From: Spiroplasma phoeniceum P40
Lineage (GTDB): Bacteria; Bacillota_I; Bacilli_A; Mycoplasmatales; Mycoplasmataceae
Assembly (NCBI RefSeq): GCF_003339775.1
Contig: NZ_CP031088.1
Coordinates: 1,674,001 to 1,738,000, forward strand
DNA length: 64,000 nucleotides
Direction of reading: 5' to 3'
Shown here one piece after another: positions 1,070 through 25,574 of this stretch. The notes under the pieces were generated by a model. That model saw only the letters and a list, made by a program, of their open reading frames with translations. It searched no databases and was not told the DNA's origin. Position numbers and translations under genes: made by a program. How positions within the stretch are numbered: position 1 is the stretch's first letter; each line of letters begins with the position of its first letter.

Positions 1070-2332
1070 GTAGCAAAATCTGTCTCTTGTTAATTTGATA
1101 ATAACATCATTTTTAACAAATGCAACTCTTTTTTTAAAAAAATAAAATATTTTATAAATATAGCTTAATTTAACCATATTTAAGCACACTAAAAAAGCAT
1201 TTATTAAATTTTAATTAATAAATTTACTTAATATTCTGTAAAAACATTTCTTTTGCACTTATTCAATTTAAACACGGTCGGAGTTTATCATTTATAACAT
1301 TAACTACTCAATCAATTTGTTTTTGACTAACATTATTAAAATCAGTGTCCTTAGGAAAGCGTTTTCTAAATTCACGGTTAATTCTTTCAATTAAGGGTTT
1401 TTGTTTTGGTGAACCAGGGTCACAATAATAAACATTAGAACCAGTAATCTTTTCCATCTCTTCAAATTTACTAAATTCTTTACCTCTATCTGTTATTATT
1501 CCTTTAATTTTTCCAATTAAATTATTACTTATAACAATATCTTTAAACTTTTCTACAACTTCATTAGCAGTATGATTTTCTAATTTCATAGCAAAGTATT
1601 TTTTACTTGATTGTTCTACTAAAACTAAAACAGCAGATTTATGGTCTTTTCCAACAACTGTATCCGCTTCAAGTCATCCAACATTAGAAACTTTATTTTC
1701 AATATCTCAAATTGACTTAAATCTTTCATCTAATTTGCCACGATTATCAGGTCTTTTTTTGTTCTATTTCTTCTACCACCATTTAATAAATTTTTCTTTA
1801 ACAAACCCAAAAGACCTAAATAAATTCATTTATACAATTTTTACACAAACGGGAAATTTAATCCCAAACTTTATTAAAAAACGCTGAATAATTTCTGCTG
1901 GTGAATCATGATAAGCATTAAATCTCAGATGAATGAAATTTAATTGCTCTTCTGTAAATTCAGGTAGTTTTTTAATACATTTTTTACGCTTTTTATAATA
2001 ATCTTTTTGTGCTTCTATTGCTATATAATCTTCTATATTTTTTAAATCGCTTAATTTCTCTTTTAACAGTATTCACACTGCGATTTGTTTGTCTTGCAAT
2101 TTCAGATAAATTAAGCGTACCATTTTTCTTTTTACAACTATCAGATAAAAATAAATCCTTAAATAAATTTCGTTCATCATATTTTAGATGTGTATAATCT
2201 TTCATATATTCTGTCTCCAATCTTTTTAAAATTATTTATACACTATTTTTAAAAAACTATTGACAATTATTTTTAAAGTTATACAATTAATTTATAACAA
2301 GTTGCGAATATCTGTCTCTATACTTGTTTTAC
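1060..2332 (-). mobile_element. IS30-family element (inactivated)
   Basis: The ends carry imperfect inverted repeats: GTAAATTCAAGTA at the left and, on the complement of the right end, GTAAAACAAGTA. Both ends also contain the motif ATCTGTCTC. The element encloses a broken IS30 transposase. I cannot see a clear target duplication. It sits exactly between the repeat and the late-gene leader. Confidence 0.6.
1224..2220 (-). pseudogene. IS30-family transposase, frameshifted
   Basis: The N-terminus has the IS30 helix-turn-helix (YDERNLFKDLFL, then LSEIARQTNRSVNTVKREI). The catalytic part has DTVVGK, ITDRGKEF and IERINREFRK, giving the Asp-Asp-Glu triad. The C-terminus is LRPCLNWISAKEMF. At least three frameshifts or stops, near 2040, 1840 and 1760, split it, so no active enzyme is expected. 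Intact family members are about 320 residues, which fits the 997-bp span. Confidence 0.85.
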
Positions 2333-9993: not shown

Positions 9994-10084
9994 TGGCGGA
10001 ACAGGAGAGATTTGAACTCTCACATCGGTTACCCGACCTAACATCTTAGCAGGATGTCCTCTTGTCCAATTTGAGTACTGTTCC
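9994..10084 (-). tRNA. tRNA-Ser(GCU), CCA encoded
   Basis: The complement folds as a complete class II tRNA. The acceptor GGAACAG pairs with CTGTTCC, the anticodon stem ACATC/GATGT encloses CTGCTAA (anticodon GCT), a variable arm forms around GGTCGGGTAACCGAT, and the T arm is GAGAG-TTCAAAT-CTCTC. A discriminator G and an encoded CCA follow. It reads AGC/AGU serine codons. It sits on the strand opposite to the late genes, between two phage gene blocks. Confidence 0.9.
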
Positions 10085-20266: not shown

Positions 20267-20551
20267 CTAAATTATTCCTTTTATTTTTTTCTCAAATTGT
20301 AATATTTTTCATCCATCTGATGCTAAATCTAAAATATCGTTAATTTTGTAATGTTCCATATAAGACGCAATAACACCTCATTTATCTTTAAATAAATTTA
20401 AGTACATTTTTGCTCATTCTAAACATTGAAAATCATAATGTTTTTTATGATGTAAAATACGACAATCAATAGGTTGACAATTAACTCAATCAAAAGATGT
20501 TGTTATTTCATCTCAAGTTTTATTAATATATTTACTTTTATATTCCATCAT
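20267..20551 (-). CDS. Phage early 94-aa protein (intact copy)
   Basis: 94 residues: MMEYKSKYINKTWDEITTSF, then CRILHHKKHYDFQCLEWAKM and a C-terminal part that runs beyond the repeat (ILDLASDGWKILQFEKKIKG). AGGAGAAAAA precedes the ATG. It is the first gene downstream of the large RNA. The left copy (1-209) is frameshifted. The Cys/His pairs might bind metal. No family recognised. Confidence 0.65.
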
Positions 20552-20556
20552 TTTTT

Positions 20557-21062
20557 CTCCTATCTTTAACTCGCTGGCACTCACTCCCAAGTGAAAGTGC
20601 CGAAGCGATAATTAGTTATATAAGTATTTATCTATTTATTTACTACGCCATCCGCTTTACTGGGGTAAGCGGTGGCGGTGTTATGTTTGTTTTAGCATCT
20701 ATTAAAAATCTGCAACTATATTTTTAAATTAGACGCCAGACATATATATGTCTTCCTTCTCCGTTCCTTTTTCAAGGAGGCAACGCTCAGTTTTTGAAAT
20801 TAAATTTACTCGCATCAATTTGAAGGACCTAATGCTAATCGCAAATTTAATTGTTTGTGTCACCATCTCTATTTTTATTGTGGTTTGATGTTAGCCTTGG
20901 ACACATCACCACTATCGCAAGTTATTAAAAATAATAACCAACGCCGATTTACCTCTTTCCTCATACACTATTTCAGTACTTGCCTCGGACGGCTGTGGGA
21001 ATGAGTTAATACTCATGTTCTTATGGAAGCACTTAGTTATTTAAAATAACCGTCCCACTCTG
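20557..21062 (-). ncRNA. Candidate large structured phage RNA, copy 2
   Basis: The reference copy, about 506 nt. Stems visible on the minus strand: 20571-20608 (15 bp in three blocks), 20646-20677 (CGCC, CCGC and TTAC paired with GTAA, GCGG and GGCG), 20739-20752 (GACATATATATGTC), 20765-20778 (TCCTT-GAAA-AAGGA with a GNRA loop), and a GGACGG/CCGTCC closing pair near 21000-21055. The first, second and fourth recur in copy 3, the second and fourth with compensatory changes. It has no ribosome site or ORF and is placed between two early genes. The RNA class is inferred as ROOL/GOLLD-like. Confidence 0.7.
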
Positions 21063-21064
21063 CA

Positions 21065-21301
21065 TTAAGTTGTTTTATAAAATCAAATTTTTAATGAACC
21101 AGTTTCATAATCAAAGATAATTTTTGAATTTTCTAGTTTTTGATAAAATTGTTGTTGTGTTTTATCTTTTACCTTATTCAATAAATTTCTATGTTTTTCA
21201 CAAGTTCATAAAACTTTATTTGATACAAATTCTTCGGTGATGAATGATGATAATTTATAACAATCATTAACATCACATATTTTTTGTTGTTTAATTATCA
21301 T
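21065..21301 (-). CDS. Phage early 78-aa protein
   Basis: MIIKQQKICDVNDCYKLSSF, then LWTCEKHRNLLNKVKDKTQQ and a C-terminus ending LKIWFYKTT. Two Cys, then Cys and His (CDVNDC...CEKH), form a possible zinc site. AGGAGGTA precedes the ATG. It lies between the attenuator-like terminator and the large RNA. The remnant operon at 22.6-23.2 kb lacks it while keeping the RNA. Confidence 0.65.
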
Positions 21302-21333: not shown

Positions 21334-21361
21334 AAAAAAACAACCCTTTAACAAGAGTTGC
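21334..21361 (-). terminator. Leader terminator hairpin, repeat copy 2
   Basis: CAACTC pairs with GGGTTG, followed by seven T on the minus strand, 20-50 nt after the -10 box. In copy 3 the G-U pair becomes A-T, so the minus-strand helix is the conserved one. Confidence 0.65.
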
Positions 21362-21382
21362 TTTTTTGCCGCTTCATCGTAC

Positions 21383-21388
21383 ATTATA
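21383..21388 (-). promoter_or_regulatory. Early-operon -10 box, repeat copy 2
   Basis: TATAAT on the minus strand at the edge of the repeat. The expected -35 position falls outside the repeat and shows no good hexamer here, unlike copy 1. Confidence 0.45.
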
Positions 21389-22590: not shown

Positions 22591-22612
22591 TATAATTCCT
22601 CCTAGTTTTAAC

Positions 22613-23150
22613 TCGCTGGCACTCACTCCCAAGTGAAAGTGCCGAAGCGAGAATTAGTTATATAAGTATTTATCTATTTATTTACTACGCCATCCGCTTC
22701 ACTGGAGGTGAGCGGTGGCGGTATGTTAATTGTTCTATATTTTGTATTTTGTAAATATACAACTATTTTTATTTGTTTTCCACCAGACATATATTGTCTT
22801 CCTTCTTCCGTTCCCTTTTCAGGGATGCAACGCTCAGTTTTTGAAATTAAATTTACTTGCATCCATATGAAGGACCGAATGCTATCTTTTTTTAAACTCC
22901 AACCAACCACGCATTTCACAAATTCAATTATTTAAGTCACTATCTCAATATTTATTGTCGTTCGATATTAGCCTTGGACTTATCACGACTATGGCTTAGT
23001 TATTAACCAGCCCCGATTTGCCTTTTTTCTCATACACTATTTCAGTACTTGCCTCGGACGGCTTCTTGTGGGAATGAGCATAAACTCATGTTCTTATGGA
23101 AGCACTTAGTTATTTAAAATAACCGTCCCACACTGCTATTAAGTTGTTTT
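22613..23150 (-). ncRNA. Candidate large structured phage RNA, copy 3 (diverged)
   Basis: Same order of helices as copies 1 and 2 but clearly diverged in loops and linkers. 22613-22650 keeps the three-block stem and gains a closing C-G pair. 22688-22720 has TCAC/GTGA where copy 2 has TTAC/GTAA. 22812-22825 has TCCCT-GAAA-AGGGA where copy 2 has TCCTT-GAAA-AAGGA. The hairpin ATGAG/CTCAT keeps its stem with a changed loop. The 78-aa ORF that precedes the RNA in copy 2 is gone, so the RNA is conserved on its own. Confidence 0.7.
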
Positions 23151-25314: not shown

Positions 25315-25401
25315 TATAAAAATCACTAAATTATTTATTTACAAAATAATTACATGACTCACACCCAGGAGTTATATAATAATACTAATTAAATTTAGAA
25401 A

Positions 25402-25530
25402 GGTCTACTGGCTTAATTTCATCCCACTAACCGCCTTCCCAAAAGTTTTCCTTTCAGTGGCTAATGTGGCTTTCGTCAATATCACAGTTGCTGGGACAGC
25501 TCAAGATTCGCACTCAATTCCCTAACTCTA
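25402..25530 (-). promoter_or_regulatory. Cobalamin riboswitch
   Basis: The minus strand contains TAGGGAATTGAGTGCGAATC, then GAGCTGTCCCAGCAACTGTG with A following (the B12 box), GAAAGCCAC, the P-stem GCCACTG...GTTAGTGG, and AAGCCAGTAGACC at the 3' end. The order and conserved bases match the cobalamin aptamer. It is followed by a terminator 90 nt downstream. Adenosylcobalamin or a related form would be the ligand. The genes below it are unidentified and mostly broken. Confidence 0.88.
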
Positions 25531-25559
25531 AATAACTATTTATTAAATTGTCTAAAACT

Positions 25560-25568
25560 ATCATACCA
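25560..25568 (-). promoter_or_regulatory. Extended -10 promoter of the riboswitch transcript
   Basis: TGG-TATGAT on the minus strand, about 35 bp ahead of the aptamer and overlapping the end of the permease gene. No good -35 hexamer, as usual for an extended -10. Confidence 0.45.
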
Positions 25569-25574
25569 CATTTT

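Follow-up and report, generated by a model that had tools for sequence, protein, structure and literature searches.

What is the block of about 495 nt that recurs on the minus strand of a 64,000-nt stretch of Spiroplasma phoeniceum P40 DNA (the whole stretch is called the window here), and in which form does it act? Large ornate phage RNAs are few, and an earlier note had taken the block for a selected phage RNA of the ROOL or GOLLD type or an undescribed relative.

Copies in the window and relatives in the genus

A repeat search finds the block three times in the window, always on the minus strand, as had been described for a block of ~510 nt. Copy 1 lies at 225-722, copy 2, the main feature as defined by repeat search, alignment and helix counts, at 20567-21063, and the diverged copy 3, which lacks the upstream gene, at 22609-23136. 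The search models R1 and R2 match both copy 1 and copy 3; in copy 2 they cover 20567-20681 and 20788-20920, respectively, this copy being among the sequences from which both were built. The limits of copy 2 are approximate block edges rather than mapped transcript ends: the 5' end lies near 21063, right behind the stop of the upstream gene, and the 3' end near 20567, a few bases ahead of the Shine-Dalgarno sequence of the next gene.

With 99.8% identity over 526 nt, copies 1 and 2 are practically the same sequence, which reflects their location in prophages arranged head to tail (window 1-21406; unit 20.34 kb, start-to-start 20341-20342). Left of copy 1, at a distance of ~20.3 kb, lies a further copy identical to copy 2, and near-identical RNA copies stand at genome positions 1653890, 1674215 and 1694557 with a spacing of ~20.3 kb. 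Since copies 1 and 2 are tandem prophage duplicates, copy 3 alone is informative inside the window, with 79.7% identity, with indels, to the other copies. The paired changes previously read from it are indeed present: TTAC/GTAA becomes TCAC/GTGA in the hairpin P12 (20646-20677 versus 22688-22720), TCCTT-GAAA-AAGGA becomes TCCCT-GAAA-AGGGA on the minus strand (20765-20778 versus 22812-22825), and the hairpin ATGAG...CTCAT has a new loop on an unchanged stem. As paired changes in one diverged copy would be anecdotal, relatives across the genus were analysed.

DNA matches were obtained in eight of 14 Spiroplasma genomes, with one lone match in G006 (E 1.9e-9) and partial matches only in G004; S. 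phoeniceum P40 itself has 31, partial ones counted. Four S. citri plasmid records match the RNA as well, as do three of 50,697 phage records (E<=1e-5), all of them Spiroplasma phage MaM-2019a. Model R1, built from 22 of 54 distinct sub-sequences, gave hits in eight of 60 genomes of the family, all in Spiroplasma, and in none of the 46 genomes outside the genus. Its hits in G004 and G006 resemble a tier belonging to a second RNA family (see below), so that the first RNA family is present in six genomes by R1. Model R2, built from 21 of 50 sub-sequences and run with stricter filters, matched one of 247 genomes of the class, namely S. phoeniceum P40, three of the genomes listed being Spiroplasma. 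Over the genus, family, class and phage-record searches, the RNA family is known from Spiroplasma only.

A 15-mer search of viral contigs yielded 37 contigs, none of them a relative by R2 at E<=1; locus L111, found apart from this search, is a relative by R2. BLAST matches of copy 3 to Enterococcus and other phages (E 0.05-7, best 20 of 93 records) were set aside as probable AT-rich chance matches; in the one such record inspected, the match lies over and beside small ORFs. Surveys of the open-access literature, for Spiroplasma phage RNAs (with the accessible part of PMC12408004, the sGff study, which reports transcriptomes) and for ROOL and related terms, turned up no such RNA.

For the alignment, 60 regions were taken from the match list besides the search loci; partial copies were left out and not every listed match was included. 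This gave 81 full-length extractions, some places occurring under two locus ids, and after removal of duplicates 58 distinct sequences. The linear phage record L023 is cut inside the RNA and therefore contributes no full copy.

Covariation and fold

Helices were first read off the 58-copy alignment by eye and then counted. This first structure has 107 pairs, 94.4% of them canonical, with 26 pairs changed on both sides (16.0 +/- 2.4 in shuffles) and 32 double events on the tree (null mean 2.25, maximum 7 of 100). The final structure comprises 117 pairs on the 58 distinct copies. It is 95.2% canonical, compared to 91.4 +/- 0.1% in shuffles and 35.0-45.5% in slid controls, and contains 33 pairs changed on both sides (shuffles 19.3 +/- 2.4; slides 8-14) as well as 206 double-changed cells (shuffles 58.7 +/- 6.7; slides 13-27). 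On the tree, 46 compensatory double events were counted in 30 pairs, with a null mean of 2.7 and a maximum of 8 of 200. The final structure was partly chosen on the alignment used for counting, for which the slid controls and a helix scan without a given structure served as guards.

The structure-free scan revealed 18 helices with at least two double events (null mean 1.3, maximum 4 of 60) and 11 with at least two such pairs (null mean 0.65, maximum 2). Its top helix is PK1, seen by eye before; PK1b and PK2, both missed earlier, and a better P10 were added from it. Ten of the 18 helices lie wholly or partly in the final structure. The other eight, including columns 224-227/248-251 (6 events) and 355-359/387-391 (3 events), are taken for linked or chance matches; compared to 1.3 expected in all, their number indicates a somewhat lenient null, with linked changes and recombination. 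Covariation is thus not absent from the wider alignment, given the 46 double events, yet an all-pairs G-test with APC and a rate-weighted null returned only one significant pair, 64% canonical.

An inactive repeat, whose pairing would be apparent only via shared ancestry and recombination, would fit the many partial copies, the mosaic copies (L058 and L064, by eye in the alignment), the weaker constraint on terminal branches and the eight covarying helices outside the structure. The slid controls, however, keep relatedness and linkage and still give far fewer double changes, and the tree null never reaches the observed value, so that this hardly credible reading is already contradicted. The earlier claim of a selected RNA is strongly supported by double changes, tree events and the structure-free scan, and we consider it close to certain that selection maintains one elaborate RNA fold and that the copies form one family.

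In the following, helices are given in copy 2 coordinates on the minus strand. The 5' domain exists in a long and a short form, the latter in 24 of the 58 copies and the former in the others; the middle carries an optional insert, and a core pseudoknot is conserved too. P1 (20995-21058) joins GUGGGA (21058-21053) with UCCCAC (21000-20995); in the 34 long-form copies that have letters at this place it is 97.1% paired, with one pair changed on both sides. The P2 hairpin (21036-21050) is a near-invariant palindrome, GUUAUUUUAAAUAAC, 98.3% paired and with no pair changed on both sides. Confined to the long form are the P3 hairpin (21001-21016; 21016-21011/21006-21001), in which the helix count gave four pairs changed on both sides, each in four copies, and P4 (20937-20993; 20993-20988/20942-20937). 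Two inner pairs of P4 are only 75% paired, and P4 as a whole shows no double change; P4a (20979-20976/20966-20963), enclosed by P4 and closing a GAAAUA loop, is 88.4% paired with two pairs changed on both sides.

The H-type pseudoknot at 20857-20912 consists of P6 (20912-20905/20889-20880), PK1 (20904-20900/20861-20857) and PK1b (20895-20892/20865-20862), which continues PK1, and has an A-rich third loop. Two double events fall on P6, eight on PK1 and five on PK1b. The strands of PK1 switch jointly between AAGUG/CACUU, AAGUC/GACUU and GUGUC/GACAC. P8 (20798-20852; 20852-20843/20807-20798) is 99.1% paired and capped by P8a (20835-20832/20815-20812), which is 95.7% paired; many other copies have P8b-d inserted at P8. 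From the loop of P8a, positions 20827-20822 form the long-range pairing PK2 with 20759-20754 (whole span 20754-20827). PK2 is 97.1% paired with five double events and reads exactly CUCUUC/GAAGAG in 33 of 58 copies, UCCUUC/GAAGGA in 11 and AUCUUC/GAAGAU in one; AUCUUC/GAAGAG occurs in three. According to the accessible part of PMC12286853, one ROOL pairing that covariation had revealed first links separate molecules as a kissing loop, and by analogy PK2 may be intermolecular as well.

The P9 hairpin (20765-20778) has a GAAA loop of the GNRA type; its stem was read by eye and not scored, and GAAA is found in the P9 region in 56 of 58 copies. Two P9-region helices were dropped from the structure because the alignment is out of register there, and a GGC/GCC pairing between the P6 loop and the P9 region was abandoned for poor support. 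P10 (20738-20753), which adjoins PK2, is 94.1% paired with four pairs changed on both sides. P12 (20646-20677), CGCC-CCGCUUAC...GUA-A-AGCGG-GGCG, is a module common to the second RNA family. The 3' arm (20567-20618) is formed by P13 (20608-20590/20585-20571), closed by P13b (20618-20615/20570-20567). In L058 (2719-2835) the tip of P13 is present as the reverse complement with the hairpin kept, a hairpin-arm inversion.

For copy 2, the minus-strand fold reaches z = -4.38, equalled by 0 of 100 shuffles, and the plus-strand fold z = -2.00 (2 of 100); RNAalifold scarcely separates the strands (-112.8 versus -108.4; column-shuffled -33 to -44). In the 107-pair structure, G-U cells exceed A-C cells by 299 to 125. 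Among changes, the ratio is 32 to 20 on inner branches and 74 to 67 on terminal ones, a small asymmetry. Fold z-score, G-U excess and operon direction indirectly support the minus strand as the RNA strand; weak plus-strand matches (25.6 bits) are also returned by R1. Hairpins used as DNA, in a replication origin, a packaging site or a recombination site, would be in accordance with the location near the presumed phage end and beside replication and recombination genes, and with the almost invariant palindrome P2 without covariation. The pseudoknots and tolerated G-U pairs point instead to RNA, although the G-U excess over A-C is modest, and such a DNA-level element appears improbable.

A coding sequence was rejected as well, as no frame is open over many copies: the median longest run is 38.5-58 codons over the six frames, and the longest open run in any frame is 120 codons, in one copy. 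The ORFs of 126 and 180 bp annotated inside the RNA in MaM-2019a records are therefore doubtful.

Genetic surroundings and proposed mode of action

Judged from the sequence, the hosts of the RNA appear to be ~20-kb Spiroplasma prophages with the RNA near the head of the early region and transposase-like genes at the other end. Directly upstream of copy 2 an open reading frame encodes a 78-aa protein (21065-21301, minus), its stop at the 5' edge of the RNA; relatives of this gene precede 51 of the 58 copies. At the same place upstream of copy 1 (724-960, minus), no open frame of at least 50 aa is listed, unlike at copy 2. The next gene downstream (20267-20551, minus) starts with the ATG after AGGAG (20561-20557), the ORF list placing the start further up. 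Further on in the operon, SSB and ERF recombinase were recognised by Pfam, and the annotation of a MaM-2019a record has a RuvC-like resolvase and a RecB-like nuclease in the equivalent region, which agrees with the phage early operon postulated before.

The first identified downstream gene is of the MEYK type in 24 of the 58 copies, MICNK in 15, ZnR in 14, MEKRYL in two and none in three; with eight queries only, this survey may miss a nearer gene. Starts within some 75 nt were found for 22 MEYK, about 11 MICNK and about 13 ZnR genes, and the query proteins resemble one another no more than by chance. A single-gene switch was rejected because the downstream gene varies. The place of the RNA is constant: behind the 78-aa gene, before the early genes and near the presumed prophage end.

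This presumed end is marked at 21373-21388 (minus) by the motif TATAATGTACGATGAA; similar motifs occur upstream in 32 of 58 copies, and the sequence beyond mostly differs. Close to it, a terminator-like hairpin reading inward (21334-21360, minus) was found by eye, with equivalents at 1018-992 for copy 1 and 23194-23171 for copy 3, both minus; end and hairpin together span 21388-21334, 1046-992 and 23218-23171 (minus, by eye). The terminator scan lists only the copy 3 hairpin, in plus-strand reading. The 3' arm of the hairpin could instead pair with the adjacent AAAACAAC, giving the region a terminator/antiterminator look. In three phages (L021:253-411, L022:246-396, L023:18984-19142), ~200 nt are added between phage end and 78-aa gene, framed by an imperfect inverted repeat of ~30 nt (CAGAGAAAGG... 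with ...CCTTTCTCTG or like); by eye, this stretch is possibly a further leader RNA.

At the far end of the phage unit, transposase-like ORFs lie in pieces at 1224-2220 (minus). By Pfam, 1224-1589 contains an rve-type integrase core just under the cut-off (E 1.1e-5) and 1993-2220 an HTH_38 domain above it; MaM-2019a records carry annotated transposases at that same end. From there, a weak promoter-like sequence TTGCAT-N-TATTAT (1098-1125, minus) points across the tandem junction towards copy 1, not above background in consensus scoring. Promoter-like sequences cross the junction in all four joined ends, those of window copy 1, L021 (1-120), L022 (1-100) and L023. In L021, 11 of 12 positions match and two of 300 random stretches are as good; matches at the other three junctions do not stand out. 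As only L021 is notable, it stays a guess that the early region may be switched on by joined ends or circularisation.

None of the 58 copies has a U-run (five T) in the 15 nt behind its 3' end, and a Shine-Dalgarno-like GGAG follows within 22 nt downstream in 44 of them, which would suit an mRNA element equally well. Between 20400 and 23700 of the window, promoter-like matches are no more frequent than by chance, and the terminator scan lists no minus-strand terminator. Since neither a promoter nor a terminator of its own was recognised, the RNA would be read as part of the early transcript from a promoter upstream, possibly at the opposite phage end and reached in the circular or tandem form, and either processing or a cis role would be needed.

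A folded leader or intercistronic element acting in cis, which would set stability, processing, translation or antitermination of the early-operon mRNA, is a serious though lesser possibility. The missing terminator behind the RNA and the GGAG that follows it speak for such an element, as do the constant place at the head of the operon, the inward terminator-like hairpin upstream and the further paired leader in some phages. With ~500 nt and pseudoknots, however, the RNA is far larger than antitermination RNAs of the put or EAR type, and the following gene is not conserved, which counts against single-gene control but not against operon-wide control.

As best explanation we propose, at even chances, that the copies form a new family of large structured phage RNAs of ~495 nt, made from the minus strand and active in folded form, perhaps in trans. 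The RNA would either be excised from the early transcript or be shielded within it, and would act during early phage development. Its most likely role would be a structural one in trans (scaffold, decoy or self-assembling particle, by analogy with GOLLD and ROOL); this predicted trans-acting mechanism we hold with slightly less than even confidence.

A second RNA family and comparison with known RNAs

A second large structured RNA family, with ~520 nt conserved and often with an inverted-repeat insert before the P12 module, surfaced as a second tier of weak R1 hits in the same genomes. In the alignments shown, the P12 hairpin and its 3' flank are common to both families. Examples are L157:1495-2154 (minus), L169 and L182-L201, as well as C1 of G000 (20453-21116, 102339-103000, 265398-266063 and others), all outside the window, in which no match is listed. 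By eye, the second family precedes a pentapeptide-repeat gene in two loci (L157, L169). Matches occur in 11 of 14 Spiroplasma genomes, three of them weak (best E 1.5e-5, 1.2e-4 and 3.6e-4). Five of 20 loci were scanned against Rfam and gave one noise match (mir-3051, E 0.79). Over 40 copies, eight helices have at least two double events (null mean 1.6, maximum 6 of 60), and folding is good on either strand (z -4.86 and -5.84 from 20 shuffles each, inverted-repeat insert included). A modular class of giant self-assembling RNAs can be imagined in Spiroplasma phages whose ends bear transposases, with at least two families (~495 and ~520 nt) and a swappable P12, each heading the early region and expressed only from joined ends (circle or tandem); PK2 or the invariant P2 palindrome would link molecules into an RNA-only particle; we hold this to be rather unlikely.

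Among 4227 Rfam families, none reached the gathering threshold at the three RNA places. At E<=10, the region yielded four matches in all, to snoRNA and rliE models and well under the gathering threshold, and at E<=1 no match appeared in six loci with relatives; ROOL, GOLLD, HEARO and OLE, the families named in the earlier note, are not among the matches. The ROOL model RF03087 had no match in the P40 genome either, its control being silent (0 of 14) and its sensitivity unproven. The Rfam scan also placed a cobalamin riboswitch at 25381-25570 of the window (minus, 86.5 bits). Such a riboswitch is not expected in Spiroplasma.

As far as the accessible part of PMC12286853 goes, ROOL and GOLLD are phage RNAs often near tRNA islands. 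Three Spiroplasma phage records and two plasmid loci of S. citri contain no tRNA gene, and the window has just one tRNA of this prophage, ~10.5 kb away from the RNA. This tRNA-Ser (GCT) gene (9994-10084, minus), internal to the prophage, is encoded opposite to the late genes. The assignment to a ROOL or GOLLD type is not supported, because no Rfam model matched, nor is a tRNA adjacent. A member too diverged for Rfam would share size, pseudoknots and phage location with ROOL (PMC12286853, in part). It is nevertheless very improbable in view of the missing matches at E<=10 in the region and at E<=1 in the six loci, the absence of ROOL from the P40 genome (silent control) and the lack of adjacent tRNAs.

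The RNA family reported here is not represented in Rfam. Its fold is well supported, structural variants of it occur naturally, and its position in small phages is fixed. With these properties, DNA matches in eight of 14 Spiroplasma genomes and a module common to a second family, the function of large phage RNAs becomes testable, and the job of the Spiroplasma phage RNA can be tested directly.

Among known systems, the antitermination RNAs HK022 put and EAR are similar as structured RNAs that head an operon whatever gene follows. They are much smaller than ~500 nt, and the terminator-like hairpin lies upstream of the Spiroplasma RNA, not downstream. OLE and HEARO are large structured bacterial RNAs too, but the Spiroplasma RNA does not match the Rfam models of either. 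What OLE, ROOL and GOLLD do is poorly understood according to the accessible part of PMC12286853, and two lncRNAs of phage K were likened to GOLLD and ROOL by place and abundance (PMC9241854, in part). GOLLD is likewise a large phage or prophage RNA, and its conserved 3' and less conserved 5' region (PMC12286853, in part) may recall the long and short 5' forms found here, where the core pseudoknot is conserved too; the Spiroplasma RNA is shorter, has no Rfam match (no positive control) and no tRNA in or beside it. Unlike ROOL (RF03087), the Spiroplasma RNA lacks a covariance-model match (again no positive control), does not stand beside tRNAs and sits within an operon, no terminator being recognised for the RNA itself. 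It resembles ROOL in size, with 574 positions in the RF03087 model and ~495 nt here, and, in a likeness that is not specific to ROOL, as a large pseudoknotted phage or prophage RNA of unknown function (PMC12286853, in part).
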